Positions 7,989-33,307 of a stretch of 64,000 bases of DNA are shown here, one piece after another; positions within the stretch are counted from its first letter, which is position 1; each line of letters opens with the position of its first letter. Under the pieces are notes generated by a model, which saw only the letters and a list, made by a program, of their open reading frames with translations, was not told the DNA's origin and ran no database searches. The stretch comes from Gordonia spumicola (GTDB taxonomy: Bacteria > Actinomycetota > Actinomycetes > Mycobacteriales > Mycobacteriaceae). The stretch lies in the NCBI RefSeq assembly GCF_009932475.1, contig NZ_BJOV01000005.1, forward strand, positions 1,922,001 through 1,986,000, in the 5' to 3' direction. A program made the position numbers and the translations under genes.

Positions 7989-8001
7989 CGGCTTCACTCC
8001 C

Positions 8002-8722: not shown

Positions 8723-8744
8723 AACGCCGCTCGCGGCGCGCGAA

Positions 8745-10253
8745 TCAGGCGCCGCAGGCGGCGAGGACGAGTTCCTTCACGCGCGCCGGATCGGCCTGGC
8801 CGCGAGTGGCCTTCATGACGTCGCCGACGATCTTGCCTGCGGCCTGGACCTTGCCGCTCCGGATCTTGTCGGCGATGTCGGGGTTGGCGGCGAGCGCCTC
8901 GTCGACGGCCTTCTGGAGGGCCGAGTCGTCGCGGACCACTTCGAGACCGCGGTCGGCGACGATCTGGGCCGGTTCGCCTTCACCGTCGAGGACGGCGACG
9001 ACCACCTGCTGTGCGAGCTTGTTCGTCAACTTGCCGTCGGCGACGAGCCCGATCACCTCGGCGACCTGCTTCGGCGTGATCGACAGGTCAGCGAGCTCCA
9101 CCTCGCGAGTGTTGGCCTGCTGCGCGAGGAACGACACCCACCAGCTGCGTGCGGCGTCGGCGGGAGCGCCGGCCTCGGCCGTCGCGATGATGAGGTCGAC
9201 GGCCCCGACGTTCACGAGGTCGCGCATGACCTCGTCGGACACGCCCCACTCCGCCTGGATGCGCGCTCGGCGGACCCACGGCAGCTCCGGCAGCGTCGCA
9301 CGGATCGACTCGACCCACTCGGGATCGGCGATCACCGGCGGCAGGTCGGGCTCGGGGAAGTACCGGTAGTCCTCGGCGGTCTCCTTGCGGCGACCGGCCG
9401 ACGTGGTCCCGTCCGTCTCGTGGAAGTGGCGCGTCTCCTGGATGATCTCGCCGCCCGCCGACAGCACCGCGCCCTGGCGGCCCATCTCGAATCGGACCGC
9501 GACCTCGACGCTCTTGAGCGAGTTGACGTTCTTCGTCTCGGTGCGGGTGCCGAACTCGGTGGCATCCTTGTCCATCAACGACAGGTTCACGTCGCAGCGC
9601 ATCGAGCCCTGGTCCATGCGGACGTCCGACACGTCGAGCGACTTCAGGAGGTCGCGCAGGGCCGTCACATATGCGCGCGCCACCTCGGGTGCCCGTTCGC
9701 CCGCGCCCTCGATGGGTCGGGTGACGATCTCGACAAGCGGCACACCCGCGCGGTTGTAGTCGAGCAGCGAGTGGCTGGCTCCGTGGATGCGGCCGGTGCT
9801 TCCGCCGATGTGCAGCGACTTCCCGGTGTCCTCCTCCATGTGCGCGCGCTCGATCTCCACCCGCCACACGGTGCCGTCGGCCAGGTTGACGTCGAGGTGG
9901 CCGTCGTAGGCGATTGGCTCGTCGTACTGGCTGATCTGGTAGTTCTTCGGCTGGTCCGGGTAGAAGTAGTTCTTCCGGGCGAACACGCTCGACTCACGGA
10001 TCGAACAGTTCAACGCGAGACCGATCTTGACTGCTGACTCGATGGCCTTCGCGTTCGCGACAGGCAAAGCGCCCGGGAGCGCCAGGCACGACGGGCACAC
10101 CTGGGCGTTCGGGTCGCCGCCGAAGGTCGTCGGGCAACCGCAGAACATCTTGGTCTCGGTGCCCAGTTCGACGTGGACCTCCATGCCCATGACCGGGTTG
10201 TACGCCGCGATGACGTCGTCGAAATCCATCAGGTCGTCGGTAGCCGCACTCAT
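8745..10253 (-). CDS. gatB: Aspartyl/glutamyl-tRNA(Asn/Gln) amidotransferase subunit B
   Basis: GatB is the kinase and tRNA-binding subunit of the GatCAB complex, which converts Glu-tRNA(Gln) and Asp-tRNA(Asn) to the correct amide forms. The 502-residue protein has the zinc-site region [11 protein letters not shown]...[11 protein letters not shown] near the start, the central kinase/cradle domain, and the C-terminal YqeY-like tail domain. The ATG at 10253 was chosen on family similarity; an in-frame ATG at 10262 is nearly as good. gatB is separated from gatCA (15.5-17.3 kb) by pfkA and an inserted block; in M. tuberculosis only pfkA intervenes. Confidence 0.96.
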
Positions 10254-10381
10254 GGCGTCCATCGTATCTGGGGGTCGAGATCGGGGATTGTCCCGATGCC
10301 CGTTAACGCCTCGCGTCCATACCGTTGAGACATGGATCGACGGCGACCCGCCCGATCCGAACTCCCCCGAGAGGACACGCC

Positions 10382-10573
10382 ATGACCACCGCAGCCAAGC
10401 GCCTGCACCGCTCCCGCACCGACAAGTGGATGGGCGGTGTCGCGGGCGGCATCGCCGACTACTTCGGCGTCGACTCCACCTGGGTGCGCATCGCCTTCGT
10501 CGCATCGATGCTGCTGCCCGGCCCCCAGGTGCTGCTCTACCTCGTCCTGTGGCTGGTCATCCCGCAGGACTGA
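10382..10573 (+). CDS. Small PspC-domain membrane protein
   Basis: This 63-residue protein is essentially one PspC domain: [26 protein letters not shown] followed by a hydrophobic hairpin (about residues 40-60). PspC domains are membrane stress sensors in the phage-shock response, and stand-alone short forms are common in actinobacteria. The ATG at 10382 has an AGAGGA site at a good distance. It is divergent from gatB and convergent with pfkA, and probably monocistronic. Confidence 0.85.
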
Positions 10574-10588
10574 CCTGCGCGGCGACAG

Positions 10589-11620
10589 TCAGCCGAAGAT
10601 GGCTCGGGCCCCGAGATACTGCTCGAGCGGGACGTTCTTGGTGTGGCCGACGGCCTCGGAGAACGGGACGCGTTCGACGCTCATTCCGCGGAGGGCGACC
10701 ATCTGTCCCCAGGCCCCGTCGGCCACCATGTTGCTGACCGCCTGCCCGAAACGGGTTCCCAGCACCCGGTCCCACGCCGACGGGACGCCGCCCCGCTGAA
10801 TGTGGCCGAGCACCGTCGCACGCGTCTCGATTCCGGTCTTCTCCTCGATGAGCGGGGCCAGGATCTCGGCGATGCCGCCGAGTCGGGGACGGTTGAAGCC
10901 GTCCAGCCCCTTGTGGGAATGCGCCTCGTCCATGTCGGGGAGAGTGAAGCCCTCCGCCACCACGACCATCGGTGAGCGGCCGCGGTCCTGGACGCTGCGC
11001 ACCCACTCGCAGATCTGCTCGAGACTCTCCGGGTGCTCGGGGATCAGGATCGCGTGTGCGCCGCCTGCCGTGCCCGCGAACATCGCTATCCAGCCCGCAT
11101 GCCTGCCCATCACCTCCAAGACCATGCAGCGCTTGTGGGAGTTGCCCGTGGTCCGGAGTCGGTCGACGGCCTCGGTCGCGATCTCGACGGCGGTGTTGAA
11201 ACCGAACGTGTAGTCGGTGGCTTCGAGATCGTTGTCGATGGTCTTCGGCACACCGACCACCGGGATCCCGTCCTCGTACAGCCGATTCGCGGCGGCCATC
11301 GTGCCGTCGCCGCCGATCGCGATCACGCCGTCGACGCCGAGCCTGCGCATGTGGCTCTTGATGTTGTCCGGGGTGCCGTCCGGTTCGGTGTACGGACCGA
11401 AGCGGCTCGTCCCGAGGATCGTGCCGCCCTGCGACGAGATGCCGCGGACCACGCCGCGGTCGAGGGACATCACGTCGCCGTACACGAGGCCGCGGTATCC
11501 GCGGAGATAGCCGACGAACTCCTGGTCGTGCAGCGTCTCACCTTGAAGCACCGTCCCGCGGATCACCGCGTTGAGGCCGGGGCAGTCGCCTCCGGAGGTC
11601 AGGATGCCGAAACGGCCCAT
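10589..11620 (-). CDS. pfkA: 6-phosphofructokinase
   Basis: PfkA phosphorylates fructose 6-phosphate, the committing step of glycolysis. The 343-residue protein, the same length as M. tuberculosis PfkA, shows the nucleotide loop TSGGDCPG at residues 8-15, GGDGT at 103-107 and the catalytic PKTIDND at 125-131. Glycine after GGD is the usual mark of an ATP-using enzyme (PPi enzymes have Asp), whereas the lysine of PKTIDND is shared with the PPi-type and mixed group III. ATP use is therefore likely but not certain. The ATG at 11620 has a GAGAGGA site. Confidence 0.95.
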   Translation of the reverse strand: MGRFGILTSGGDCPGLNAVIRGTVLQGETLHDQEFVGYLRGYRGLVYGDVMSLDRGVVRGISSQGGTILGTSRFGPYTEPDGTPDNIKSHMRRLGVDGVIAIGGDGTMAAANRLYEDGIPVVGVPKTIDNDLEATDYTFGFNTAVEIATEAVDRLRTTGNSHKRCMVLEVMGRHAGWIAMFAGTAGGAHAILIPEHPESLEQICEWVRSVQDRGRSPMVVVAEGFTLPDMDEAHSHKGLDGFNRPRLGGIAEILAPLIEEKTGIETRATVLGHIQRGGVPSAWDRVLGTRFGQAVSNMVADGAWGQMVALRGMSVERVPFSEAVGHTKNVPLEQYLGARAIFG

Positions 11621-11708
11621 CGCGCAAGTCCTCTCACGTCGCCGCGGGGCGCCCATCGCGCCACCGTCGACCGGTTCCATGACAACACTTTTCGCGGCGA
11701 CGCGGAGG

Positions 11709-12350
11709 CTACTTGAGTCCGTTCTCGTACGCGAAGACGACGGCCTGTGCCCGATCGCGCAGTCCGAGTTTGGCGAGCACGTTGCTGACGTGCGTCTTGA
11801 CGGTCTGCTCGGACACGAACAGTTCGGTCGCGATCTCCGCGTTCGACTTCCCGTCCGCGACGCATCCGAGCACTTCCCGCTCGCGGGGCGTCAGGACATC
11901 GGCCGCCGCCGACGCCGGCCGCGTCGCACGCGAGGTGACCTCGGCTATGAGCCGTCGCGTCACAGACGGCGCCAACAGCGCGTCGCCGGCCGCGACGACG
12001 CGGACCGCGCGCACAAGTTCGTCCGCGGGCGCGTCTTTGAGCATGAATCCGGACGCACCGATCCGCAGGGCGGAGTACACGTAGTCGTCGATGTCGAACG
12101 TCGTCAGCATCAGCACGCGAGTGGGCGACCCGCTGGAGATGATCTGCTCGGCGGCCCACAGTCCGTCCCGCCGCGGCATCCGCACGTCCATCAGGACCAC
12201 GTCTGGCCGCAGCCGGGTGCACACGTCGACCGCCGCGACACCGTCTTCCGCGTCCCCGAGCACCGAGATGTCGGGCGCCGCGTTCAAGAGAGCGGCGAAA
12301 CCCGCTCGCACCATCGCCTGATCGTCGGCGATCACCACAGTCACAGCCAC
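11709..12350 (-). CDS. NarL/LuxR-family two-component response regulator
   Basis: The 213-residue protein has an N-terminal receiver domain with acidic pocket ADD (8-10) and phosphoacceptor Asp55 in VVLMDVRMP, then a C-terminal LuxR-type helix-turn-helix (LTPREREVLGCVADGKSNAEIA). It is the partner of the histidine kinase encoded immediately upstream with a gap of ten bases. Closest family resemblance is to DesR/LiaR-type regulators. Target genes are unknown; the divergent phospholipase gene upstream of the kinase is a candidate by position. Confidence 0.92.
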   Translation of the reverse strand: MAVTVVIADDQAMVRAGFAALLNAAPDISVLGDAEDGVAAVDVCTRLRPDVVLMDVRMPRRDGLWAAEQIISSGSPTRVLMLTTFDIDDYVYSALRIGASGFMLKDAPADELVRAVRVVAAGDALLAPSVTRRLIAEVTSRATRPASAAADVLTPREREVLGCVADGKSNAEIATELFVSEQTVKTHVSNVLAKLGLRDRAQAVVFAYENGLK

Positions 12351-12360
12351 TCTGACGAGC

Positions 12361-13578
12361 CTATCGAGTGGGCAGCGGGATGCGGGCGGTGACCGCGAAC
12401 CCGCCGTCCGACGTCGGACCGTGCGTCAGCTCGCCGCCCACGGCGGACGCCCGCTCGTTCATCCCGACCAGCCCGTGTCCACTGCCCGCACCGTCCGGCT
12501 CGGCGACGGCCGGACCGTTCACGATCGACACGATCACGTCGGCCCCGTCGCGGTCCAGGCGGACGACCACCTGGGCTCCGGGCGCGTGACGAGCGGCGTT
12601 GGTCACCGACTCCTGCACGATCCGGTACGCGGCGGCTCCCGCCGCGCCGGGGTCGCCCCATCGGTCGACGCGGTCGGCGAAGTCGATGTCGACTCCCGCG
12701 GCCCTGGCCGACGCGACCAGCTCCGGGAGGTCGTCGACGCCCTGCATCGGAGTCAGCTCGACGTCGGCGTCGCCGTCGGACGGCCGCAGCACGCCGAGGA
12801 GTTGTCGCACCTCGTCCAGCGACTGGCGGGCGGCGTCGGCGATCGCCGTGAACTCGGCGTCGGCCCCCGGGCCGATCGTCTCGGCGGGATCGGCCGCGGC
12901 GAGACGGTACTTCGCGGTCTGCGACATCACCACCACCATCGACATGCGATGGGCCACCACATCGTGCAGTTCGCGTGCGATCCGCGCCCGTTCAGCCAGC
13001 ACCGCTTCCCTCGCCTGGGCGTGCTCGGCCACCACCGACCGTTCGGCGATCACCTTCTGCGCGGACATGCGGTAGCGCACGAACGACGTCCCGATGGCGA
13101 CGACGACCAGCGCGAAGATCCACCCGATGCGCATGTCCGGGGTGAGCCCGACGACAAACGCCCCCGCGGTGATCAGCGTGAGGACCGGGACCTTGTCGAG
13201 CGGCTGTGTCAGCAGACCCGCGAAGGTCATGACGAGCAGCGTGATGAACATGGGGATCGGCATCGGCATCGGCGCGTTCGACGCCGGGAACAGGCTCGCG
13301 ACCGCAGCCGTCACGGTCACCATCGCCCAGCCGACACGCACGGCTCTCGGTCCGGCGAACACGAACGCCAACGACCACGCCGACCCCGCGGCGAACACCG
13401 GCAGGAGGAAGGCGGCGATGTCGTGGGTCTCGGCCGTCGTCGGCCAGGTGATCGCGGTGAACGTCGCGGCGAGCAGCAGCCCGATCCAGTTCCGGCGACT
13501 GTCGAGGTATCGACGGACCGCCGGGTCGGGCACGGCGTCGAACGACACGCGTTCGATCGCGCGGCGAGCTCGGGACAA
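12361..13578 (-). CDS. Two-component sensor histidine kinase (HisKA_3 type)
   Basis: The protein of about 405 residues has an N-terminal membrane region with roughly five or six hydrophobic segments and almost no extracellular domain. A dimerisation/phosphoacceptor box follows (RARIARELHDVVAHRMS, His in ELHD), then a HATPase domain ending with GSGHGLVGMNERA. It should phosphorylate the adjacent NarL-type regulator. The start is uncertain: TTG at 13578 has GAGGGG eight bases upstream, whereas GTG at 13587 sits directly on that site. The mostly membrane-embedded sensor suggests an intramembrane or envelope-stress signal. Confidence 0.85.
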   Translation of the reverse strand: MSRARRAIERVSFDAVPDPAVRRYLDSRRNWIGLLLAATFTAITWPTTAETHDIAAFLLPVFAAGSAWSLAFVFAGPRAVRVGWAMVTVTAAVASLFPASNAPMPMPIPMFITLLVMTFAGLLTQPLDKVPVLTLITAGAFVVGLTPDMRIGWIFALVVVAIGTSFVRYRMSAQKVIAERSVVAEHAQAREAVLAERARIARELHDVVAHRMSMVVVMSQTAKYRLAAADPAETIGPGADAEFTAIADAARQSLDEVRQLLGVLRPSDGDADVELTPMQGVDDLPELVASARAAGVDIDFADRVDRWGDPGAAGAAAYRIVQESVTNAARHAPGAQVVVRLDRDGADVIVSIVNGPAVAEPDGAGSGHGLVGMNERASAVGGELTHGPTSDGGFAVTARIPLPTR

Positions 13579-13753
13579 CGTTTTCACCCCTCGACCGTAG
13601 ATCGCCGACCGGGGCTGCCGCCTCCCCCGTGAGAGGGAGATCGGCCCTCGCCCGCGAGGGTGACGTCGACCGGTCGGGTCACCGGTGAGTACTGCGGCAC
13701 AATCGCTTTCGCGGGCGATCCGCCGCGGTGCCCGCCGACGCGACCGTTGATCC

Positions 13754-14362
13754 ATGACCGAGAAGCTGACCGTCCGCATCGTCGTCCGACGCATCGTCAC
13801 CGCCGTCGCCGTCTCCGTGTTCGCCACCGTCGTCCTGGGTTCGGCCGCCGTCGCGTCCGCGTCGTCCGTGGCGCCTCCCGGTGTCGGACCGGTGACCAAT
13901 CCGACCGAGCGCGCCGTCGCCGCCCTGGTGGGCGAGCACCCCGAAGACGCGCTGTACACGCTGCCCGACGATTTCGTCCGGGTGGTCGGCTACCGGCCCG
14001 TCATCGAGGCCGGGCGGCCCGCGAACCCGTGGGGCGGGTGCTCCAGTCCGATACCGCTGCCCGACCGTTTCGAGCCCGCGTGCCGCAGCCACGACTTCGG
14101 GTACGACCTGCTCCGGTACGGCGACCGCACCGGAGAGCCCGCCGCCGCGTGGGCGCGTCGCGCGCTCGACCAGATGCTGGTGAACGCCATGCACGCCGTG
14201 TGCACCGATCCGCTGTGCGACATGTCCGCGGGGCTCGCGGACGGCGGCCTGACCGTGAACTCGTGGCGGCAGGGCTGGTCGGCTCCGTCGTCGGAGTCCG
14301 CCGCGGATGTCGCGTCGACGACCGTCGTCCGCCTCACCGAGACGATGGCGGGACGACGATGA
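13754..14362 (+). CDS. Secreted phospholipase A2-like protein
   Basis: This 202-residue protein has a Sec signal peptide (hydrophobic residues about 14-35, cleavage likely after ASA or ASS near 36-38). The mature part contains CRSHDFGYD at 110-118, matching the catalytic His-Asp pair (His113-Asp114) of prokaryotic phospholipase A2 enzymes such as that of Streptomyces violaceoruber, and a preceding WGGCSS segment that could help bind calcium. Predicted activity is extracellular release of sn-2 fatty acids from phospholipids. Its stop overlaps the start of the next gene (ATGA), so the two are co-translated. It is divergent from the kinase gene. Confidence 0.75.
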   Translation: MTEKLTVRIVVRRIVTAVAVSVFATVVLGSAAVASASSVAPPGVGPVTNPTERAVAALVGEHPEDALYTLPDDFVRVVGYRPVIEAGRPANPWGGCSSPIPLPDRFEPACRSHDFGYDLLRYGDRTGEPAAAWARRALDQMLVNAMHAVCTDPLCDMSAGLADGGLTVNSWRQGWSAPSSESAADVASTTVVRLTETMAGRR

Positions 14363-22511: not shown

Positions 22512-23537
22512 TCAGAGCGCAGACGGATCGGTGGCGAGGAGTTCGGCGGTGCGGGAGGCCAGGCGGAGGCCCGCGGCGGCCCACGCGGGGGTGGTGCCTG
22601 CGAATCCGCCGGTCGGGGTGACGACCACGTTGTCGCGCAGGACCCCGCGGTCGAGGCCGATCTCGTCGATCAGCGCGGCGAGACGCTGCGCGAGCTGGTC
22701 CGCGGTGACCGGAACCGCGGGCGGCGAGGCGGGGACGACAGCCGCGAGCATCACGCCGCCGCCGTCGAGGAACTCCGCCATCTTGTCCTTCTGCTCGTCC
22801 GGGAGCGGCCGCGACAGGTCGACTGTCACCGAGTACGACGACAGCAGCGGGCACAGGTCCGACTGCGGGGTCGCTCCGCCGTTGAGGATCATCGGCGCAC
22901 CGATCGTCGCGGCCATCTCCTCCAGACGTTGCGCCACCAGCGACACCGGGACGGGCGGGATGGCGTCCAGCCTGGTCAGCGGTTGCACGCTGCCGTTGAG
23001 GACGGCGTCGACCTGCGGCTCGTCGAGTTGGACGACGACCTCGGCCCCGAGTCGGCGCCGCAGTTCGCGGACGTGTTCGGCGAGCCCGTCGGACATCGAC
23101 GCGACGACGTCCATGCGCGCACCGCGATCGCGCACGAGCTTGTGGCCGTTGCGCAACTCAACCTGCGCGGAGAAGGTGAACGGACCGCACGACTGGACTT
23201 TGAGCAGTCGCCCGGTGTCGATGAGGCCGCTCGAGTCCCAGTGCTCTTCGAGGGCGTCGAGGTCGCGCGCCAACAGGTCGCGGGCGCGCCTGGTGACCGA
23301 ACCGGGCCGCGAGGTGAGTCGGTACGCGTCGTGGACCATCTCGAACGGCAGGTCGATGAGGATGGCGCCCGCGCGTCCGACCGAGTCGGCGCCCACCCCG
23401 CGCGCCGGGAGTTCGGGAACGAACGCGAAGTCCGTCTCGCCCGAGACGATCGCGACGGCCTCGGCCGGGTCGACGCCGGGCATCGGTCCGAGGCCGGTGC
23501 CGAGCCCGGTGGGCAGGCGCGGCGCGACGTCGTTCAC
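22512..23537 (-). CDS. MetE C-terminal-like protein (methionine synthase II family)
   Basis: The 341-residue protein resembles the UROD/MetE-like superfamily, with similarity to cobalamin-independent methionine synthase C-terminal domains, including [11 protein letters not shown] and the final [11 protein letters not shown]. It is about half the length of a full MetE and lacks the N-terminal homocysteine-binding half; an orthologue (Rv3015c) lies in the same order in M. tuberculosis. Its GTG start overlaps the mnmA stop by four bases, so it is translationally coupled to mnmA and the cysteine desulfurase. Methyl-transfer from another donor is possible but untested. Confidence 0.82.
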
Positions 23538-24637
23538 GCAGTGGCCTCGACGGTGGTCGCGATGCGACCGCAGCCGAGGACGAGGTCGCCGTTCGCGTCG
23601 TCGGCCGCGTACAGGACCGCGGCCTGCCCGCGGGCGACTCCGCGCAGCGGCGTCCGCAGGTCGATCCGGACGGCCGGACCGCCGTCCACCTCGATCGGGG
23701 TCGCGACGGCGGGTGCGAGCCCGCCGTGCGCGCGCACCTGGACGGTGCATTCGATCGGCCCGTCGGGGGTGACGCCGCTCGTCCAGATCGCTCGGACCGC
23801 GGTGATCGAGGTGACGTCGAGGTCGGTCGCCGATCCCACCGTGACGGTGCCCGACTCCGGGTCGATCCCGGTCACGTACCTGGGGCTGCCGTCCGCGCCG
23901 GGCCCGGCGATGCCGAGTCCCTTGCGCTGACCGATCGTGAAACCGTGGACGCCGTCGTGGTCGGCGAGCTTGCGCCCGGTCGCCTTCTCGATCACCGCAC
24001 CCGGGCGGATGCCGATACGCGCGCCGAGGAACGCACGCGTGTCGCCGGTCGGGATGAAGCAGATGTCGTGCGAGTCGGGCTTGTTCGCGACGGCGAGCCC
24101 GCGGCGCTCCGCCTCCTCGCGGATCTGCGGCTTCGGCGTGTCGCCGACCGGGAACATCGCCCGCGACAACTGGTCGTGGTCGAGGACCGCGAGCACGTAC
24201 GACTGGTCCTTGTCGGCGTCGACCGCGCGACGCAGCTCGCCGTTCTCCAGTCGTGCGTAGTGGCCGGTCGCGAGCGCGTCGAACCCGAGAGCCTCCGCGC
24301 GCTCGGCGAGCGCCGAGAACTTGATCTTCTCATTGCACGACAGGCACGGATTGGGTGTCTCACCGGCGGCGTAGGACGCGACGAACTCGTCGATCACGTC
24401 CTCCTTGAACCGGTCGGCGAAGTCCCACACGTAGAACGGGATGCCGAGGACGTCGGCCGCGCGGCGCGCGTCGTCGGCGTCCTCCCGCGAACAGCAGCCC
24501 CGAGACCCGGTGCGCAGGGCCCCGGGCGCCATCGACAACGCGAGATGCACGCCGACCACGTCGTGACCTGCCTCGACCGCCCTGGCGGCGGCGACCGCCG
24601 AATCGACCCCACCGCTCATCGCTGCGAGCACGCGCAT
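23534..24637 (-). CDS. mnmA: tRNA-specific 2-thiouridylase
   Basis: MnmA thiolates U34 in tRNA Lys, Glu and Gln using sulfur relayed from a cysteine desulfurase. The 367-residue protein has the PP-loop SGGVDS at residues 8-13, and the two catalytic cysteines in [12 protein letters not shown] (Cys98 is the usual one) and DSHDICFIP (Cys193). A CC pair near residue 48 is a feature of the actinobacterial form. It starts on the last base of the desulfurase stop codon (TGATG), so the sulfur donor and acceptor enzymes are coupled. Confidence 0.96.
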
Positions 24638-25860
24638 CAGCGTCTCCCTCCCGTTCGCGACCCCGCGCTGAGCAGTCCTGCCGCCCGCGCGCGGTTCACC
24701 ACCTCGCCGATCGCGTCGGCGACAGCGGTCACATCGTCATCGTCATTGTCGTGGGCGAGCGAGAAGCGGAGCGATCCGCGCGCCGTCGCCATGTCCAGGC
24801 CCATCGCCAGCAGCACGTGGCTGGCTGCGGCCACTCCGGCCGTGCAGGCCGAGCCCGTCGAGCACTCGACGCCCTTCGCGTCGAGGAGCATCAGCAGGGA
24901 GTCGCCCTCGCATCCCTCGAACGACACGTGGACGATCCCCGGCAGCGCATCCGCCGCGTCCGGGCGTCCGACGGCGCCGTTCACCCGGACGCCGCCGACG
25001 TCGACGAGCACATCGCGCAGCCGTTCCCGCAGTGCGACGACGCGCGCCGCGTGCTCGTCCCGGTTCTCGACGGACCACCGCAGCGCGGCGGCCATGCCCG
25101 CCGCAGCGGGCACGTCCTGAGTGCCCGACCGCAGGTCTCGTTCGTGGCCGCCACCGTGCAGCAGCGGTGTGCAGGCGACGTCGCGACGCAGGAGCAGCGC
25201 GCCGATCCCCTGAGGTCCGCCGAACTTGTGGCCCGCGATGCTCAACGCCGCGAGTCCGCTCGCCGCGAAGTCGACGGACAGGTGTCCGGCCGCCGCGATG
25301 GCGTCCGAGTGCACGGGGATCCCGTGGTCCGCGCCGAGACGGGCGACCTCGGCGACCGGCTGCACCGTGCCGACCTCGTTGTTCGCCCACATCACCGAGA
25401 TCACGGCGACCGAGTCGGCGTCGGCCGCCAGCAGATCGCGCAGGGCGTCGACGTCGACGACTCCGATCTCGTCGACCGGGAGGACGACGAGTTCGGCTCC
25501 GGCCTCGTCGACGAGCCACTGCGCCGGGTCGAGGATCGCGTGATGTTCGACGGCCGAGATCACGATCTTCCGACGGCGGTCGTCGTCGCGGCGTCGGGCC
25601 GCATAGACGCCCTTGAGCGCGAGATTGTCGGCTTCGGTGCCTCCGCTGGTGAAGATCACCTCGGAGGGTCGAGCCCCCAGATCGCGGGCGATCGACTCGC
25701 GCGCCTCTTCGAGGATGCGCCTGGCCCTGCGGCCGGAGCCGTGGAGCGACGACGAGTTGCCCGGGCGAGCCCATGCGGCCTCCATCGCCGCACGTGCCTG
25801 ACCGACGAGTGCGGTGGACGCTGCGTTGTCGAGGTAGGCGGGGTGCGAAGGCGTGGACAT
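24637..25860 (-). CDS. iscS: Cysteine desulfurase (IscS-like)
   Basis: This pyridoxal-phosphate enzyme removes sulfur from cysteine as a persulfide. The 407-residue protein has the PLP lysine in [12 protein letters not shown] and the sulfur-accepting cysteine in STGSACTAG. Genomic coupling to mnmA indicates that tRNA thiolation is a main use; the Fe-S cluster SufS system is usually encoded elsewhere in actinobacteria. The ATG at 25860 is preceded by GGTGGGG. An inserted three-gene cassette lies upstream where M. tuberculosis has the acyltransferase Rv3026c directly. Confidence 0.94.
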
Positions 25861-25921
25861 GACCCCACCACGATAGCCGCGCCCGGTGACCAGGGGAAAA
25901 TCACCGACCGGACGCCGCCGG

Positions 25922-27301
25922 TCAACGCACTGTCTGTCCGACCGCGAGGACTCCCGCCGGATCGTGCTGCCGCGCCAGCGCCGCCAGCCACACCCTGGTG
26001 TCGTCGTCGTAGCAGCGCCCGATCGTCTCGGGATCGGACGAGGCGGTGAAGTTGGGCAGCCGCGCACCGTCGCTGAACGGTGCGAGCGCCGCAAGCACGG
26101 CCCGCGTCGCGTCGGGCACGACGTCGGCGATCGGCGGCGCGAGCACTCCGACGATCTGCACGTTGGCCGCCGCGCCGCGATGACAGAGCGCGCTGCGCGT
26201 GGCGCCCTCGCGGGCGAACGCACCGCCGAGCAGGCGCAACTCCACGAGCAGCAGTGGGCTCCCACTGGTCGGGCCCGCCTTGTCGACGAGCGCGGCGATC
26301 GTCTCCGGCGTGACCTCGCGGAGCAGGACCGAGTCTTCGAACACCGGCATCGGATCGGTCGGATCTGCGTGGATCCCGCCGATCGCCGCGTACGGCATCG
26401 GAGCCACGGCGTCGAGGATCGGCGGGGCCGCGGTGCGCATCGGCGCGAGGACTGTCGCGGCGGCCGCCGGATCGGCGAGGCTCGCGAAACGCACGGCGAC
26501 GGTGAATCGTCCGGCGAGCATCGGCGGAACGCCCGGCAGGTCCGGGAGTCGCAGCAGCGCGACCGACGTGTCGGCGTCGTCGGGCAGCGTCCGCGTCCAC
26601 GCCTGCCACGCGTGCAGGACGGCGGCGGCGTCGTCGCCGTCGAAGTAGAGTGCGCCGCCGTAGAAGCCGGTCAGCGGCAGCAGGTCGATCACCGTGTCGA
26701 CGACGACGCCAAGCGTCGCCTTGCCGCCGCGCAGTCCCCAGAACAGTTCCGCGTTCTCGTCCGGCGCCGCGCGCCGCACGCGGCCGTCGCCGGTGACGAC
26801 CGTGAACTCGCGAACATAGTCGGCCGCACTGCCGAGAGCCCGGACCATCGGACCGATGCCGCCACCGGTCAGCATGCCGATCACACCGACGCCAGGGGCA
26901 CTGCCGCAGACCGGGGCCAGACCGAGCGGCGTCGCCGCGTCGATGACCGCCTGCCAGCGCAGACCCGCTCCGACCGTCGCCGACCGCGTCACCGAGTCGA
27001 CGTGCAGTCGGTCCAGTCGGCCGGTGCGGACCAGCAGCGTGTTCCCGTCGAGTTCGGTGGCGCCGTGCCCGGTCGCGTGGACGGCGACGGTCATCGCGTT
27101 CGCCGCCGCGAATGCGACGACGGCGGCCACGTCGTCGGCGTCGATGACGTCGATCACCGCCCACGGCCGGCGGGACACCACCACGTTGAACGGGATCGTC
27201 GCGTATCCCGGGTCGCTGGGGCGATGCACGTCGCCGCGGACGGCTTCGCGCAGTTCGGCGATGTCCGCGCGGTCGATGCCTCGGTCGGTCTCGATGGTCA
27301 T
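25922..27301 (-). CDS. FAD-binding oxidoreductase, berberine-bridge-like
   Basis: The 459-residue protein has a PCMH-type FAD-binding domain (residues about 45-220) with HATGHGA, where His79 occupies the place of the residue that carries covalent FAD in related oxidases, and the flavin-binding GVIGMLTGGGIGPM segment. The C-terminus contains the BBE-like FTASSDPETIGRCYDDDTRVWLAALARQHDP, which resembles the NY-containing tail of secondary-metabolite oxidases. No signal peptide is visible. The gene has its own upstream region carrying three 11-bp-spaced CTTGG-type repeats, so it is probably controlled by the adjacent SARP regulator. Substrate unknown. An AGGAGGAAG ribosome site precedes the ATG. 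Confidence 0.88.
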   Translation of the reverse strand: MTIETDRGIDRADIAELREAVRGDVHRPSDPGYATIPFNVVVSRRPWAVIDVIDADDVAAVVAFAAANAMTVAVHATGHGATELDGNTLLVRTGRLDRLHVDSVTRSATVGAGLRWQAVIDAATPLGLAPVCGSAPGVGVIGMLTGGGIGPMVRALGSAADYVREFTVVTGDGRVRRAAPDENAELFWGLRGGKATLGVVVDTVIDLLPLTGFYGGALYFDGDDAAAVLHAWQAWTRTLPDDADTSVALLRLPDLPGVPPMLAGRFTVAVRFASLADPAAAATVLAPMRTAAPPILDAVAPMPYAAIGGIHADPTDPMPVFEDSVLLREVTPETIAALVDKAGPTSGSPLLLVELRLLGGAFAREGATRSALCHRGAAANVQIVGVLAPPIADVVPDATRAVLAALAPFSDGARLPNFTASSDPETIGRCYDDDTRVWLAALARQHDPAGVLAVGQTVR

Positions 27302-27368
27302 GGCACTTCCTCCTGTCGACGGCGGCGACCCGGTGATCGCCGCGGTGACAACAGCGTCTCCGGCCCCG

Positions 27369-27395
27369 CTTGTCGCGCACTTGGAGCGGGCTTGG
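27369..27395 (-). promoter_or_regulatory. Predicted SARP operator upstream of the FAD oxidoreductase
   Basis: Three plus-strand pentamers, CTTGT at 27369, CTTGG at 27380 and CTTGG at 27391, are spaced exactly 11 bp. Direct repeats at one-turn spacing are the known binding architecture of SARP regulators such as ActII-ORF4. The block is 68-94 bases upstream of the oxidoreductase ATG. The same triplet occurs upstream of the MFS gene (32403-32429). Confidence 0.7.
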
Positions 27396-27419
27396 AGAGC
27401 TCGCCGGGACGGCCGGAGG

Positions 27420-30400
27420 TCAGAGGAGGGCGCGCGCGGCGGACTCGACGCGAGGGAGGCCGAGGAGCCGGGCGTCGGACGCGATCACCGAGACCGCGGC
27501 GGAGCGCGGACCGCCGACGGGGAGGCGGGACGCGGCCAGGAGGCGGCAGCGCAGCAGCCCGGACGGGCTGTCGCCCTTCTCGCAGAGGGCCCGCGCCCGG
27601 AGCAGGGCGGCGTCGCCCGCCGCATCGTCGCCGAGCAGGAAGTGCAGTCGCGCGAGTGCGAGGTCGACCGGACCGACGCAGCCGACCTGACCGACCGTGG
27701 CGATGCATCCCCGGAACGGCGTCAGATACTCCAGGAACGACTGCGCGCGGTCGGCCAGACCGAGCTCGGCGACGAGGTCGGCGAGCACCGTCGCCTGCGC
27801 GAGCGACGTCCAGAACATCGGATGATCGTCCCGCGACCACAGGTCGATCATCGTGCGGACCGTCGCCTCGTCGCCCTGCGTCCACGCGACGGTCGCGACG
27901 CCCGCCGCCATCAGCCGCGCCACCTGGTCGTCGGGGGCCTGCGCGACGACCGACGCCGCCCAGTCCATGCGGCCGGACTCGTCGGTGCCGACGACGTCGT
28001 CGATCAACTCGCCGACGCCCTGCTGTCCGGCGAGCGCCATCAGCGCGAGCATTCCCGAGCCCGCGACGTACAGTTCGGTCTGCTGGTGCACGGTCATCGC
28101 GACCCGGAAGTGGTCGCGGGCCACGTCGAAGTCGGCGTGCCACACCGCGAGCGCCATCTCCATCCACCGCAACTGTGCACGCAGCACGGGAAGTCGCATG
28201 CGTTCGCTCCCGGAGATCGCCCGCCGGAGATGGCCGACCGTCGAGGGCAGATCGCCGAGGGTCAGCGCGGCCATCGTGACCACCGAGTCGGTGATGACCG
28301 AGTCGAGTTCGCGGTCGGCGTGCGTCATGCCCGAGATCCGCCCGGCGAGTGCGATCTGCTCCTGCGCATGCGATGCGACGCCGGAGTAGGTGATGAATCG
28401 AGCGAGCGCCGCATCGGCGGCGGCGTCCTCGTCGCCGACCTGCCCGGCCGCCTCATCGGCCCGCCGGAGCAGTTCCGCCGGTACGTCGGCGTCGCGGTGA
28501 TAGCAGTGCCCCACGGCGAGCGCCCCGAGGATTCCGACGAGCGCGCGCGGTCGGTCCGCGAACGCCTCCGACGCCTCCTGAAGCACCGCGTGCAGGCCGG
28601 CGGGCACCGCGGTCGGCGACATCCACGGCCAGCCGCCGCCCGCGCGCAGCAGGGTCCGTGCGAGCCGACCCGCGGTGTCCGCGGCGCCGTCGACGACCGC
28701 GTCGCGCAGCCGCGTCTCGACGGTGTCGAGGACGAGTTGGGCGCGGCCCGCCCTGGCGTTGGCTCCGAGCATCGCGACGAGCAGTTCGTCGCGTCGGGCG
28801 ACGTCGGCGTCGCCGCTCACGGCCGACTCGTACGTCGCGAGCGCACGCCCGTACCAGTACGCGGCGTTCTCCGAGTCCCACCGTCTCGTCGCGTCGTCGG
28901 CCGCCGCCCGGCAGGCCGTGACGATCTCGTCGATCTCGGCCACCGGGAGCGCCTCCAACAGATGGGCGGCTCTGGCCTGGATCGCGCCCGCGCCGTGCAC
29001 GTCGGCGAGGACGTCCGCGATCCGCTTGTGCATCCGGCAGCGCCGCAGCGGCGCGAGCGCCGCCGACGCCTGCTCGCGCAGCAGGGCGTGGGCGAACGCG
29101 GGCCGCCCGCTCGACGACGTCCAGACCACGATCGCATCGTCCGCCGCTTCATCGAGGCAGTCGGCGACGTCGGCCGTCGGCCGGTCCATCACCCGCGCCA
29201 GCAGGGTGACGTCGATGTCGTCGCCGAGAAGCGCCGCGTACCCGATCACCTCGCGCACCGGCGGGTCGAGCGTGTCGAGCCGTCGTTCCAGCACCGACCG
29301 CACCGCGTCGGGCATCCGCCCCGCGCGCCGACTCGCGGGGAGCCGCGCGTACTCGGTGACGAACAGCGGGTTGCCGCCGGTCCTCGCGGTGATCTCGAGC
29401 GCGTCGCCGGTGGACAGTCGTTCGCCCGCCACGAACCGGACGAGATCGCTCACCTCGTCCCGCGTCAGTCTCGGCACCGTCAGCACGTCGCCGCCCGCTC
29501 GGATCAGGGCGTCCCGCAGGCGCGAGGTCGCCGGGCCGATCTCCTCCTCCCGCACCGTCAGGACGACGCTCACACGCGGTCGGGTGAGGACCGAGGCGAG
29601 ATAGCCGAGCAGACCCGACGTCATCGGGTCCGCCCACTGGACGTCGTCGACGACGAGTGTCACGGGTGCGGCGGCCTGCAGCAGGCCCTGGACGCGTTCG
29701 TAGACGACGAACCGCGCCGTGTCGGCGTCGACTCCGGAGGGGATCGAGAGCACCTCGTCGGGGTCGGCCCCCAGTTCCCGGCACAGGTGACGCAGCGGCC
29801 ACCACGCGGGGATGCCCTCGGCGTCCGGGCACCGCACCCACACCGTCGTCTCGCCGCGCAGCCCGGCCAACCGGGTCGCCTCCTGTGCGAGACGCGTCTT
29901 GCCTATTCCGGCCGGTCCGACGAGCGCGAGCCATGCGGTGCCCGAACGGTCCGGGGCGTACAGTTCCGCGATCGACTCGACGAGCGCGGTCCGTCCGATG
30001 ATCGGAGCCGCGGCCTCCGTGTTCGGGTCGACGTCGACCCGAACGCTCCGCGGGACGTCCGCGGGTTCCCTCGCCTGCTCGGCTCCCGCCCAGTGCGGCG
30101 GGCGAGGCCACGCCGCGATCTCCGGGTCGTGCCGCAGGATCGCGCCCTGCAGTTCGCCGAGTTCCACACCGGGGTCGAGGCCGAGCTCGTCGCCGATCGC
30201 CCGCGAATGCTCGCCGAACAGCGCCAACGCCTCCGCGGCCCGACCCGCCCGGTACAGCGTGATCATGTGCAGCCAGACGCCGCGCTCGCGGAGCGGATCG
30301 CTCGCCCGGAGCGCCGTCACCTCGGTCGCCGCGGCCGCGATGTCGCCTGTCGCCAACAATGCGGTCACGTGGATCTCGGCGACGCCGAGCCGCGTCTCGG

Positions 30401-30881
30401 TCAGCGACGCCGCGGGCACCGACACCCAGTCGTGGTCGCCGAACTCGGCGAGCAGTTCACCCCGCCACCGATTCGCGAACTCCGCCGACAGCGCCAGCGC
30501 GTCGTCCCACCGCCGGTCGCGGCGCGCGTCGTGGGCGTCACGGGCGAGTCGTTCGACGTCGGCGACGTCGAACGAGTCGGACCCGAGATCCAGGCGGTAT
30601 CCGGGATTCACACGCTGGATGGGCGACGCCTCGCCGTCCGCGTCGCGCAGCAGTCGGCGCAGGTTGGAGATGTACGCCTGCAGGCTCGTCCCCGCCGCGG
30701 CGGGCTGATTCTCGCCCCACACCGAATCCATGATGCGGTCGCGGGACACGACGGCCCCGCGACCGAGGAGGAGTGCGGCCAGCACGGCCCGCTGCTTCGG
30801 AGACCCCAGGTCGACCGCGACACCGTCACGGATCACGGCCAGCGGACCGAGGGCTCGATACTCACGCATCGGCTCGCTCAT
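27420..30881 (-). CDS. Large SARP-family (AfsR-like) transcriptional activator with ATPase domain
   Basis: The 1153-residue protein has the domain order of large SARPs: an OmpR-like winged helix (about residues 8-97, LGSPKQRAVLAALLLGRGAVVS), a bacterial transcriptional activation domain (about 105-252), an AAA-type ATPase with Walker A GPAGIGKT at 322-329 and Walker B LVVDDVQW near 409-416, and a long helical repeat region to the C-terminus. Such proteins activate secondary-metabolite or stress genes by binding direct repeats at 11-bp spacing. It overlaps the upstream MFS gene by four bases, so the two are one operon. Likely targets are the two promoters in this cassette that carry 11-bp repeats. 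Confidence 0.92.
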   Translation of the reverse strand: MSEPMREYRALGPLAVIRDGVAVDLGSPKQRAVLAALLLGRGAVVSRDRIMDSVWGENQPAAAGTSLQAYISNLRRLLRDADGEASPIQRVNPGYRLDLGSDSFDVADVERLARDAHDARRDRRWDDALALSAEFANRWRGELLAEFGDHDWVSVPAASLTETRLGVAEIHVTALLATGDIAAAATEVTALRASDPLRERGVWLHMITLYRAGRAAEALALFGEHSRAIGDELGLDPGVELGELQGAILRHDPEIAAWPRPPHWAGAEQAREPADVPRSVRVDVDPNTEAAAPIIGRTALVESIAELYAPDRSGTAWLALVGPAGIGKTRLAQEATRLAGLRGETTVWVRCPDAEGIPAWWPLRHLCRELGADPDEVLSIPSGVDADTARFVVYERVQGLLQAAAPVTLVVDDVQWADPMTSGLLGYLASVLTRPRVSVVLTVREEEIGPATSRLRDALIRAGGDVLTVPRLTRDEVSDLVRFVAGERLSTGDALEITARTGGNPLFVTEYARLPASRRAGRMPDAVRSVLERRLDTLDPPVREVIGYAALLGDDIDVTLLARVMDRPTADVADCLDEAADDAIVVWTSSSGRPAFAHALLREQASAALAPLRRCRMHKRIADVLADVHGAGAIQARAAHLLEALPVAEIDEIVTACRAAADDATRRWDSENAAYWYGRALATYESAVSGDADVARRDELLVAMLGANARAGRAQLVLDTVETRLRDAVVDGAADTAGRLARTLLRAGGGWPWMSPTAVPAGLHAVLQEASEAFADRPRALVGILGALAVGHCYHRDADVPAELLRRADEAAGQVGDEDAAADAALARFITYSGVASHAQEQIALAGRISGMTHADRELDSVITDSVVTMAALTLGDLPSTVGHLRRAISGSERMRLPVLRAQLRWMEMALAVWHADFDVARDHFRVAMTVHQQTELYVAGSGMLALMALAGQQGVGELIDDVVGTDESGRMDWAASVVAQAPDDQVARLMAAGVATVAWTQGDEATVRTMIDLWSRDDHPMFWTSLAQATVLADLVAELGLADRAQSFLEYLTPFRGCIATVGQVGCVGPVDLALARLHFLLGDDAAGDAALLRARALCEKGDSPSGLLRCRLLAASRLPVGGPRSAAVSVIASDARLLGLPRVESAARALL

Positions 30882-32356
30882 TCACCAGGCGATCCTACGG
30901 TGGACGCGACGGCGATCGTTCCCGTTCGCGAGGAACGTCCGTCCGCGCGGTCCGGTTCGGCGTCCAGGCGTGCCCGGCCGAGCGTCGCCGCGGCGACCGC
31001 CGCCCCGGCCATCGCGATGCCGCAGCCGATCCACAGCGCGACGACCAGCGCTTCGGTGAACGCCTCCGCCGCATCGGGTGCGAACGCCGACTGTGCGGGG
31101 AACACCGCACCGAGGGCGGCGACGCCGAGCGCGATGCCCGACTGCCGGAACACGTCGTTCACTCCGGCCGCGAGTCCGACGTCGTCGCTGCCGCTCTCGG
31201 CGAGGACGATCGCCGACAGCACCGGATTGAACACGCCCGCCCCCACGCATGCGAGCAGGAAGCCGGGGACGAGATTCCAGCCGCTGCTGTCGACGGTCGC
31301 GATCGTCATCCACGCGAGCCCGCAGGCGACCGCCACCAGCGACACCGAGATCAGGATGCGCGGCGCGACCACCCGCATCAGCTTGTCCGTGGCGCCTGCG
31401 ACGACGAACATCACGACGGTCCCCGGCAGGTACACGAGACCGGCCTCGATCGGCGACAACCCGACGACACCCTGCAGGTACAGGGTCACGTAGACGAACA
31501 CGGCGAACATCGACGCGGAGATCGCGAACGTCGCCGCCTGGGCTCCGGCGAAGACCCTGGTCGCGAACAACCCCAGCGGGAGCATCGGCTCGGCCACCTT
31601 GCTCTCGATCAGCAGGAACAGGCCGAACGCGACGGCGGCGATCAGGAACATCAGCAGCGTGCGGTCGGCCGACCAGCCTCGCTCGGACGCCTGGAAGAAG
31701 CCGTCGGTCAATGCCCCGAGCGCGATGACCGCGGCCACCTGGCCGGCCCAGTCACCGCGACGCGGCTCCGCGCTCGCCGACTCGTCGATCCACCGCACGC
31801 CCGCCAGCATCGCGAGACCGACGGGCACGTTGATCACGAAGATCGCGCGCCAGTCGAACCACTCGGTGAGCATCCCGCCGAGCAGCGGACCGACGGCGAA
31901 CGCCCCGCCGATGGTCGCGCCGTACGCGGCCAGGGCGCTCGCGCGGGCCTTGGTCCCGTGCCCGAATGTCGCCGCCAGCAGGGCGAGCGACGTCGCGAAC
32001 AGCAGCGAGGCTCCGAGTCCCTGGACCACGCGCGCCGCGTTGAGGATCACGAGCCGGTCGGCGCTCGCGCACAGCACCGACGACACGGTGAACACGACGG
32101 CTCCGATGACGAAGACGCGTCGTCGTCCGACGCGGTCGGCCCAGGCGCCCGCGCTCAGCACCGTCGCGGCCAACGCCAGCGTGTACCCGTCGACCACCCA
32201 CTTCAGTCCGCTCAGATCGGCCGAGAAGTCCTTGGAGATCGCGGGCAGCGCGGTGTTGACCACCGCGATGTCGAGCATCAGCATCGCCGTCGCCGCGCAC
32301 ACCACGGCGAGGGTGATCCGGCGGCGTCCGTCCCACCGGTCTGTCGTATCGGTCAT
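30878..32356 (-). CDS. MFS drug-efflux transporter (DHA2, 14-segment type)
   Basis: The 492-residue protein has about 14 hydrophobic segments and DHA2 features: LDIAVVNTALPAI in the first segment, motif A (GAWADRVGRRRVF) and the motif C-like region YGATIGGAFAVGPLLGG. These proteins export drugs or small metabolites in exchange for protons. It is the first gene of the operon with the SARP regulator, and three 11-bp-spaced repeats lie 47-73 bases upstream of its ATG. It may export the product of, or confer resistance to, the compound handled by the oxidoreductase. Confidence 0.93.
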   Translation of the reverse strand: MTDTTDRWDGRRRITLAVVCAATAMLMLDIAVVNTALPAISKDFSADLSGLKWVVDGYTLALAATVLSAGAWADRVGRRRVFVIGAVVFTVSSVLCASADRLVILNAARVVQGLGASLLFATSLALLAATFGHGTKARASALAAYGATIGGAFAVGPLLGGMLTEWFDWRAIFVINVPVGLAMLAGVRWIDESASAEPRRGDWAGQVAAVIALGALTDGFFQASERGWSADRTLLMFLIAAVAFGLFLLIESKVAEPMLPLGLFATRVFAGAQAATFAISASMFAVFVYVTLYLQGVVGLSPIEAGLVYLPGTVVMFVVAGATDKLMRVVAPRILISVSLVAVACGLAWMTIATVDSSGWNLVPGFLLACVGAGVFNPVLSAIVLAESGSDDVGLAAGVNDVFRQSGIALGVAALGAVFPAQSAFAPDAAEAFTEALVVALWIGCGIAMAGAAVAAATLGRARLDAEPDRADGRSSRTGTIAVASTVGSPGE

Positions 32357-32402
32357 GATCGTCCTCTCGAATAGTCGATGAGGACGACTGTCGCGACCGG
32401 CG

Positions 32403-32429
32403 CTTGGAAACCCCTTGCCGCGGGCTTGG
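32403..32429 (-). promoter_or_regulatory. Predicted SARP operator upstream of the MFS-SARP operon
   Basis: CTTGG at 32403, CTTGC at 32414 and CTTGG at 32425 (plus strand) repeat at exactly 11-bp intervals in the 81-base gap before the MFS gene. The arrangement is the same as that before the FAD oxidoreductase. Autoregulation by the SARP is inferred. Confidence 0.7.
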
Positions 32430-32437
32430 CTCGCCGG

Positions 32438-33307
32438 TCAGGCCACCGATGTCAGCGACGACGTGGGCCGCGCGTCGAGGGTCACGATGCTCTCGGACAG
32501 GTCTGGAGCCGGTGCGATCAGCCGCTGCGCGGCGTCGGCGAGCTCACGCCGATCCGGCACGGGCAACTGCAGGTCGAAGACGGTGACGGTGACCGTCAGC
32601 TCGCGCGCGGTGACGATCCGCAAGAAGGTCGATCCGATGGTGTCGTCGCCGATGAAGCCCGCCAGCGCTGTCGGACGACCAGCGTCGCGGTACGTCAGAC
32701 GCATCGGGAGCACCGGCGCGCCGGCGTCGACCGCGGCTTGGAAGAACGCGGGCCGGAATCGCCCCGACGCCGCACCGCACCACGTGGTGCCCTCCGGGAA
32801 CACGGCGACCGCCCGTCCCCGATCGAGGATGCCGGTGACCCGCTCGACCATCGGGACCAGCAGGCGCAGATCCCCTCGCACGTGTGAGAGCACCCCGAAC
32901 GCCTTGGCGACGACGCCGAAGCCCGGCATCTGCGCCACCTCGCGCTTGGCGACGAAGCGGGCGGGCGCCACGGACGCCATCGCGACGATGTCCAGGAACG
33001 ACACGTGATTGGCTACGATCAGCGCGCCGCGTACATCGCGGGCCCGGCTCGGACGATGATCGTCGACGGTGAGCCGGACGCCCATCGACCGCAGGCAGAC
33101 GCGTGCGCTGCCCCTCCAGTACCCGTGGCGGGCGCGACGAGGCACGAGCACCGTCACCGTCCCCGCCGCCAACAGGACGATCGCGGCGCACGCGAACCCG
33201 GCCATCCGCAGTGCCGACGTGAGCCGTGACGCCCGGTCGGTCTCCGGCACGCACGCCGTGCCGCAGGGACTGTGCGGCAGCCACTGGTTCACTGTCGTGT
33301 CCGCCAT
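32438..33307 (-). CDS. PlsC-family 1-acyl-glycerophosphate/lyso-lipid acyltransferase
   Basis: The 289-residue protein has a membrane segment (about residues 36-55), then a PlsC domain with the catalytic NHVSFLD motif and the FPEGTTW block that binds the phosphate. It transfers acyl chains from ACP or CoA to a lyso-lipid. Orthologue position: M. tuberculosis Rv3026c. It is six bases downstream of an OlsB-like N-acyltransferase, the pairing (OlsB then OlsA) that makes ornithine lipid in other bacteria; glycerophospholipid remodelling is the alternative. Confidence 0.88.
   Translation of the reverse strand: MADTTVNQWLPHSPCGTACVPETDRASRLTSALRMAGFACAAIVLLAAGTVTVLVPRRARHGYWRGSARVCLRSMGVRLTVDDHRPSRARDVRGALIVANHVSFLDIVAMASVAPARFVAKREVAQMPGFGVVAKAFGVLSHVRGDLRLLVPMVERVTGILDRGRAVAVFPEGTTWCGAASGRFRPAFFQAAVDAGAPVLPMRLTYRDAGRPTALAGFIGDDTIGSTFLRIVTARELTVTVTVFDLQLPVPDRRELADAAQRLIAPAPDLSESIVTLDARPTSSLTSVA

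Follow-up and report, generated by a model that had tools for sequence, protein, structure and literature searches.

Predicted control of a McrA-like oxidase and an MFS exporter by a large SARP through CAAG triplets in Gordonia

Do the two sets of short repeats flanking a large SARP gene of Gordonia form one regulon, and if so, which protein reads them and what is the output? In the accessible excerpts of the literature, the SARPs treated belong to antibiotic clusters of Streptomyces; here, a candidate regulon is present in Gordonia. A preliminary description of the 64-kb window, the whole stretch of DNA that was analyzed, reported six plus-strand words: CTTGT at 27369, CTTGG at 27380 and CTTGG at 27391, followed by CTTGG at 32403, CTTGC at 32414 and CTTGG at 32425. 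It placed them upstream of an FAD oxidoreductase and of an MFS-SARP operon. All six words are indeed present, each triplet with an 11-bp spacing, and both triplets are intergenic. The first is located between 27301, the start of the oxidase gene, and 27420, the stop of the SARP gene, and the second between 32356, the start of the MFS gene, and 32438, the stop of an acyltransferase gene.

The genes are encoded by the minus strand, and toward them each word becomes CCAAG, GCAAG or ACAAG. In this direction both triplets follow the pattern CAAG-N7-CAAG-N7-CAAG, and 10 bp after the last CAAG a -10 element of the type NANNNT is found. The predicted operator 1 upstream of the flavin oxidase (27367..27395, minus strand) contains the heptamers CCAAGCC (27389-27395), CCAAGTG (27378-27384) and ACAAGCG (27367-27373) at an 11-bp pitch, followed by the -10 element GACGCT (27353..27358, minus strand) and a predicted transcription start near 27346. 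The predicted operator 2 upstream of the MFS-SARP operon (32401..32429, minus strand) has the same pitch with CCAAGCC (32423-32429), GCAAGGG (32412-32418) and CCAAGCG (32401-32407); here, the -10 element is GACAGT (32387..32392, minus strand) and transcription is predicted to start near 32380. The CAAG words span roughly -48 to -23 relative to the predicted start, with a fixed distance to the -10 element, and due to the 11-bp pitch all three half-sites lie on one face of the helix. In the heptamer register CCAAGNN both sites display the arrangement expected for a SARP, which is 11-bp direct repeats with 8 bp between the 3' heptamer and the -10 element.

Within the window, the exact triplet occurs two times, whereas all of 100 dinucleotide-shuffled versions contained none. 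Genome-wide, the bare triplet has three copies vs. one of the reversed control word; this is only a mild enrichment, and the bare triplet alone was therefore not taken as evidence, the -10 element and conservation being needed in addition. The third genomic copy (L001, C2:656983) was rejected, as it is an 11-bp tandem duplication and lacks both -10 letters. In combination with the -10 element, the triplet is present in two copies in the 4.89-Mb genome, and no other is found at up to one mismatch, so that the equally frequent occurrence throughout the genome, named in the preliminary description as the result that would speak against it, is not observed. At two mismatches three copies are opposed by ten of the reversed control, and information is thus carried by the strict pattern alone. 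The doublet with the -10 element yields three matches vs. three for the control, namely the two known sites and C5:1088903, the latter being taken as chance.

The SARP between the two operators (27420..30881, minus strand, 1153 aa) is composed of an OmpR-type DNA-binding domain (residues 27-97), a BTAD (residues 104-249) and an AAA_16 ATPase domain (residues 294-440, 58.8 bits) with the Walker A motif GPAGIGKT at residue 322. Its membership in the SARP family is given by matches to Trans_reg_C and BTAD with 46.4 and 89.2 bits, respectively, each over its cut-off, and the solved AfsR and EmbR chains align with residues 7-256. For the C-terminal half, neither a LuxR-type HTH nor a cyclase family is present among the five Pfam matches of the protein, and residues 386-667 reach 99.9 bits with a kinase/cyclase-fusion model, which is under the cut-off of that model. 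This corresponds to the SARP-LAL (PimR class) architecture, a SARP domain together with a LAL/cyclase-type ATPase half without LuxR HTH. As an AfsR orthologue it does not qualify by score, the AfsR NCBIfam equivalog being matched with 166.7 bits vs. a cut-off of 1430. The start of the SARP gene overlaps by 4 bp with the end of the gene for the MFS exporter (30878..32356, minus strand, 492 aa), a predicted target and first gene of the predicted operon. This DHA2-like protein belongs to the MFS_1 family (Pfam, 154.5 bits) and scores 218.7 bits with the EmrB-type DHA2 model TIGR00711, just short of the cut-off of 230.2.

The second predicted target is the flavin oxidase (25922..27301, minus strand, 459 aa, FAD_binding_4), which is similar to mitomycin radical oxidase. 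Its best solved relative is 9r43 'Mitomycin radical oxidase' (E 2e-81, residues 27-454), meaning that the similarity to McrA covers the full length. Detoxification would be the corresponding output. This is the least certain step of our proposal, suggested only by the similarity of oxidase and pump, with the mcrA and mct genes of the mitomycin producer as the model. A different output, with the regulation itself being real, would be the synthesis or tailoring of a metabolite by an oxidase resembling EncM or the BagK/FevA1 oxygenases. We regard this as possible but rather unlikely. The oxidase scores 351.6 bits with the BagK/FevA1 model and about 120 bits with the EncM chains, and antibiotic clusters are the classical SARP targets in the excerpts at hand. 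However, the former score stays below the NCBIfam cut-off of 800, the best solved match is the mitomycin radical oxidase, and the predicted control is shared with an exporter. Furthermore, the flanking proteins among six tested (23534 to 33307) are an aminotransferase-V protein, MnmA and an acyltransferase, which are neighbors in most Gordonia loci as well, and no antibiotic gene is present among these six.

Further evidence for the operators is obtained from other Gordonia species. In 21 syntenic loci, the triplet is conserved in front of the oxidase in all 20 loci having this gene, and all 17 loci with an MFS gene carry it in front of the latter. These 37 triplets, of which 34 are perfect and three carry one mismatch, always point in gene direction. 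The A (column 37) and the T (column 41) of the -10 element, columns unused for the alignment, are invariant in all of them, that is in 20/20 oxidase and 17/17 MFS promoters. Four loci without an MFS gene in the fetched stretch (L046, L048, L049, and L050) keep the oxidase site, and L047, which has no oxidase, keeps the MFS site. In three rearranged loci the SARP gene is divergent from the oxidase gene and the MFS gene is not adjacent, which indicates that autoregulation via the MFS gene is not universal. The upstream regions of the neighboring aminotransferase (20 loci) contain no site, the best one having 9/12 pattern letters, and an extension of the regulon to this gene was dropped.

On the genus level, we distinguished class A, genomes with an orthologue of the locus SARP, from class B, a second and related class of large SARPs. 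For class B, the threshold (E below 1e-40) was chosen after the data had been seen, with a wide gap between the best match of the weakest accepted genome (2.5e-44) and that of the strongest rejected one (3.5e-13). One class A genome, G040, also has a class B match (2.3e-52). Of 59 Gordonia genomes, all 45 having a large SARP of either class contain triplets and none of the 14 without one does, whereby the relatedness of these genomes makes the counts not independent. The strict pattern, three CAAG words at 11-bp pitch, 10 bp and NANNNT, has 127 matches (summed from the table of genomes) vs. 0 for the reversed control, and the large-SARP regulon is thus readable from sequence. Oxidase orthologues with at least 57% identity are present in 19 genomes, every one of them with a class A SARP. 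The codons of the SARP DNA-binding domain (30591..30803, minus strand) encode the recognition helix SLQAYISNLRR from residue 66, and the segment S[LI][QH]AY[ILV]SNLRR is common to the 40 class A sequences that were read, whose overall identity goes down to 42%.

Outside of the genus the operator appears rebuilt. The set of other genera comprised 50 genomes; G192, G237, and G255, with fragmentary matches, were left out, the stretch of L151 has no oxidase, and MFS matches under 300 bits were dropped in the locus comparisons (one case, L106). Here, a CAAG doublet with the -10 element is kept before the oxidase in 43 of 45 loci. In addition, opposed CTTG and CAAG doublets occur with an inner spacing of either 14-15 or 24-26 bp, the two classes differing by about one helical turn. 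The triplet itself has matches in 143 of 401 family genomes, and large-SARP genomes without any triplet exist (e.g., G064, G100, G103, G108, and G117); these counts are less telling than those within the genus, doublets being the predominant form elsewhere. CAAG sites accompany the locus-type SARP and the oxidase across genera.

Which protein binds these sites? We consider it probable, on the basis of the sequence comparisons, that the large SARP (27420-30881) binds both CAAG triplets and activates the oxidase and the MFS-SARP promoters, including that of its own gene. In front of both genes, operator and -10 element keep their position and orientation, triplets and large SARPs strictly occur together in the genus, the sites are kept in the rearranged loci, and the own genome has no additional full site at up to one mismatch. 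That another SARP of the same genome controls both promoters instead is improbable. The genome does have five further SARP-like matches (e.g., C2:324219, E 8e-36), and in genomes whose only large SARP belongs to class B the same triplet precedes other genes, and the locus SARP is thus not the only one associated with this word. Moreover, for 15 class A genomes no class B match below 1e-40 is listed, and five of them (G001, G010, G028, G044, and G053) have one full site elsewhere. Against this stand the other ten (G000, which is the own genome, G011, G016, G020, G024, G031, G032, G037, G045, and G049), where full sites are restricted to the class A locus, and the association of CAAG sites with the locus-type SARP and oxidase across genera. 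The activation of both promoters by the 1153-residue SARP as a self-contained regulon, as put forward in the preliminary description, is thus supported by the comparison, with the limit that, given the extra sites, the regulon is not locus-confined in every species. In the five species concerned the SARP orthologue may have further targets. A triplet at G044:2750328, which precedes a SecA-like reading frame and has no -10 element, was rejected.

Even less probable is a reading of the triplets as binding sites of PhoP or another response regulator of the OmpR type. PhoP would be expected in all Gordonia, yet no triplet is present in the 14 of 14 genomes that have no large SARP. AfsR and PhoP sites overlap at afsS in Streptomyces according to the accessible part of PMC10972967, which gives a word of the CGTT(T/C)A type for both, whereas the word here is CAAG. 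Chance or low-complexity repeats, of which the tandemly duplicated third triplet might be seen as an example, can practically be dismissed in view of two exact triplets in 0/100 window shuffles and 37 sites conserved in position across species with an invariant -10 element outside the alignment.

With the locus SARP as regulator, the following mechanism can be proposed. The SARP would bind the two CAAG triplets and likely switch on two presumably weak promoters, one driving the McrA-like flavin oxidase and one the probable operon of MFS exporter and SARP. Neighboring protomers would fill the half-sites, of which the two nearest the promoter would correspond to the AfsR position at afsS (about -40 to -19). 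RNA polymerase may be recruited there in place of a -35 contact, while the upstream half-site would add one more protomer. The C-terminal ATPase half would keep the SARP inactive until a small molecule, possibly a toxic one, is sensed. Active SARP would then raise its own operon in a positive feedback together with the oxidase, which would re-oxidize or inactivate a redox-active aromatic compound to be exported by the pump.

For the wider picture, a stand-alone and self-amplifying chemical-defence switch of SARP, McrA-like oxidase and often an MFS pump in Gordonia and many relatives, we see an even chance. Its operator would have been rebuilt from tandem CAAG triplets in Gordonia to opposed doublets in two helical-turn spacing classes in many other genera, with the proximal doublet and its distance to the -10 element staying fixed. 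Being readable from sequence, the regulon offers targets for experiments, operator variants as a series provided by nature, and a candidate for an inducible defence of Gordonia and its relatives. Since the predicted output in the own genome consists of two promoters only, the signal of a large SARP becomes approachable.

In open-licence PMC, no literature was found on SARP regulators with direct repeats in Gordonia, on opposed SARP repeats with helical-turn spacing or on the structure of the mitomycin radical oxidase McrA. Judged by titles and the start of abstracts, the SARP direct-repeat papers including Rhodococcus and Mycobacterium contain no such regulon either, and the SARP-LAL papers are by title Streptomyces or actinomycete antibiotic work and reviews. 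Among the known systems, AfsR on the afsS promoter (8hvr, 8k60, 8jke) is similar in its DNA-binding and BTAD domains, which align with the Gordonia SARP (8hvr, E 1e-31). As far as the available text reports, its repeats are 11 bp apart, 8 bp separate the 3' repeat from a poor -10 element, and the 22-bp box is centered at -29.5 (PMC10936776). In contrast, AfsR has two repeats of another word there instead of a CAAG triplet. Its helix reads VRTYASRLRK vs. LQAYISNLRR in Gordonia, and by alignment the base-contacting T88 and R92 are replaced by A and N.

PimR of Streptomyces natalensis, a SARP-LAL, likewise combines a SARP domain with a large ATPase half without LuxR-type HTH. The pimM operator is given in the consulted excerpts as three heptamers of the type CGGCAAG, separated by 4-bp spacers, one of which reads CAGG in place of CAAG (PMC3367932, PMC5930380). 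With CC/GC/ACAAG in Gordonia, the CAAG core, the triplet and the pitch are shared, whereas the CGG part is absent. In the same excerpts PimR is encoded in an antibiotic cluster, has pimM as single target, is not autoregulated and does not overlap the -35 region with its operator. For the Gordonia SARP, in contrast, two targets and autoregulation are predicted, no antibiotic gene is present among the neighbors tested, and the sites have the classical spacing to the -10 element. A SARP that is PimR-like in domain and operator layout is the best explanation. McrA and mct, the self-resistance of the mitomycin producer, pair an oxidase of the same flavoprotein family (by the 9r43 match) with a transporter; SARP control is not mentioned in the accessible part of PMC6804068, in contrast to the control predicted in Gordonia. 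What appears new here is the predicted autoregulation, the position with no antibiotic cluster seen adjacent and the opposed doublets at two spacings in other genera. The spacing is like that of AfsR, and the half-site core and the triplet are like those of PimR.

The six repeat words of the preliminary description were all recovered in place. On the minus strand, on which the genes lie, they form two triplets of the type CAAG-N7-CAAG-N7-CAAG, one read toward the gene of a flavin oxidase (25922-27301, minus strand) and one toward the gene of an MFS protein (30878-32356, minus strand), whose 3' end overlaps the start of the large SARP gene (27420-30881, minus strand) by 4 bp. The window contains two exact triplets in comparison to none in 100 shuffles, and the whole genome three bare triplets in comparison to one occurrence of the reversed word. 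The third genomic triplet (locus L001, 1501-1526, contig C2) is a tandem 11-bp duplication without a -10 element and was discarded.

The Gordonia and Jongsikchunia sites were aligned by CAAG only, the -10 columns playing no part. Here, an A at column 37 and a T at column 41 are invariant at the oxidase sites (20/20) as well as the MFS sites (17/17). These columns represent a NANNNT -10 element, which starts 10 bp past the last CAAG, or 8 bp past the heptamer CCAAGNN, and reads GACGCT in the oxidase promoter (27358-27353, minus strand) and GACAGT in the MFS promoter (32392-32387, minus strand). The full site, triplet plus -10, is present twice in the 4.89 Mb genome, with no other copy at up to one mismatch; allowing two mismatches yields 3 occurrences versus 10 for the reversed control.

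When 59 Gordonia genomes were searched at the protein level, 20 were found to carry a class A SARP (the own genome and 19 orthologues at 52-77% identity), and in 25 further ones, class B, the best match is a 28-36% identical relative. Oxidases of at least 57% identity occur in 19 Gordonia genomes, every one class A. The comparison covered 21 loci (the window, 19 class A neighborhoods and a named Jongsikchunia locus), 20 of which contain the oxidase and 17 the MFS gene. Scored by matched letters of the three CAAG words, the triplet before the oxidase reaches 12/12 at 19 loci and 11/12 at one, and that before the MFS gene 12/12 at 15 genes and 11/12 at two. Four loci without the MFS gene in the fetched stretch retain the oxidase site, and L047, which lacks the oxidase, retains the MFS site. 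The upstream regions of the neighboring aminotransferase gene score at most 9/12 at 20 loci, and those of the SARP gene at most 9 as well, save three rearranged loci (L046, L048, L049) where SARP and oxidase have one divergent intergenic region in common.

At least one triplet is found in 45/45 Gordonia genomes that encode a SARP of class A or B and in 0/14 others, a co-occurrence with a Fisher value of 7.5e-14 that ignores kinship among genomes. For the reversed control, 8 matches were counted in these 14 genomes and 59 across all 59. Summed over the table, 127 of the 140 Gordonia triplets retain the -10 (control: 0); the 13 others are 11 upstream halves of overlapping quadruplets, L001 and one before a SecA-like frame.

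The regulon had further been proposed to be self-contained, which holds in part. Fifteen class A genomes have no class B match below 1e-40 among those listed. In ten of them full sites are confined to the SARP locus; the other five carry one further site each, which counts against full self-containment. The extra sites in G001, G028 and G053 have near-identical words, and such full sites off the SARP locus (L137 5030-5055, G028:C18:35951, G053:C113:178250) may represent an additional target of the orthologue. At L137, the frame examined (203 aa) has no Pfam match.

In class B genomes, a second SARP class is encoded close to a flavin oxidase (34-35% identity) that has a CAAG triplet and -10 of its own (L123, L127, L131); this oxidase and its site recur in L132, for which no SARP neighbor is among the matches listed. 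Triplets also precede hemerythrin-domain and MMPL-transporter genes (L125, L126, L130, L133, L141; L130 and L141 assigned by similarity to L126), both being present 2.3 kb apart in L126, and probably belong to a more extensive regulon under the second SARP. L124 and its equivalents in ten further Gordonia genomes display four CAAG words at 11-bp pitch with a -10 past the last; the frame behind this site in L124 has no Pfam match.

Across the family, the SARP was detected at E below 1e-100 in 67/401 genomes and 12/31 genera. Outside Gordonia, 47 of 50 SARP loci were fetched, of which 46 remain once Jongsikchunia is counted with the Gordonia set. The oxidase is present in 45/46, preceded by CAAG-N7-CAAG and a -10 at the standard distance in 43/45; in L105 the next register holds a triplet ending in CAAA with a fitting -10, and in L160 one word is altered. 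An exact third CAAG was detected by script in none of the 45. An opposed CTTG-N7-CTTG doublet lies upstream of the CAAG doublet in 30/45 loci (within L109-L121 and L149-L175), at inner distances of 14 (8 loci), 15 (7), 24 (3), 25 (11) and 26 bp (1); these distances form two classes, 14-15 and 24-26 bp, separated by roughly one helical turn. Upstream of the MFS gene, CAAG and a -10 at the standard distance are present in 10/10 loci examined, L103 included; six (L115, L116, L117, L119, L120, L121) have a second CAAG 23 bp further upstream, with a similar middle between the words, TTTCNCCCG-like in most. In L109, the large SARP gene is present in two tandem copies (7059-14043) upstream of the oxidase.

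Among solved structures the oxidase best matches the mitomycin radical oxidase 9r43 (E 2e-81), followed by EncM, and the MFS protein is DHA2-like, scoring slightly under the EmrB-model cut-off. The immediate flanks in Gordonia and Jongsikchunia, an aminotransferase-V protein (19/20 fetched loci), MnmA (18/20) and an acyltransferase (19/20), include no biosynthetic cluster genes. For the mitomycin producer, PMC6804068 reports mcrA and the transporter gene mct for self-resistance. Detoxification plus export is therefore the favored output of the regulon, with less confidence than the regulatory claim.

That claim, activation of both promoters by the SARP, is supported on sequence level by the repeat arrangement, the -10, conservation, co-occurrence and the order of the genes. 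The SARP is predicted to bind the triplets and, once bound, would activate both promoters, including positive feedback on its own expression; a ligand may control it through the ATPase half. Its DNA-binding domain, BTAD and AAA_16 ATPase all lie above the Pfam cut-offs, and Pfam gave no LuxR-type HTH in the protein. For AfsR, PMC10936776 describes an afs box of 22 bp centered at -29.5. With +1 set 7 bp past the -10, the two proximal repeats would fall within this interval and the middle repeat would occupy the place of the -35. AfsR contacts bases by a helix via T88 and R92; the corresponding helix of the window SARP, LQAYISNLRR, is nearly unchanged across the 40 class A proteins read, and in the ten class B proteins read its place is taken by YISGLR.
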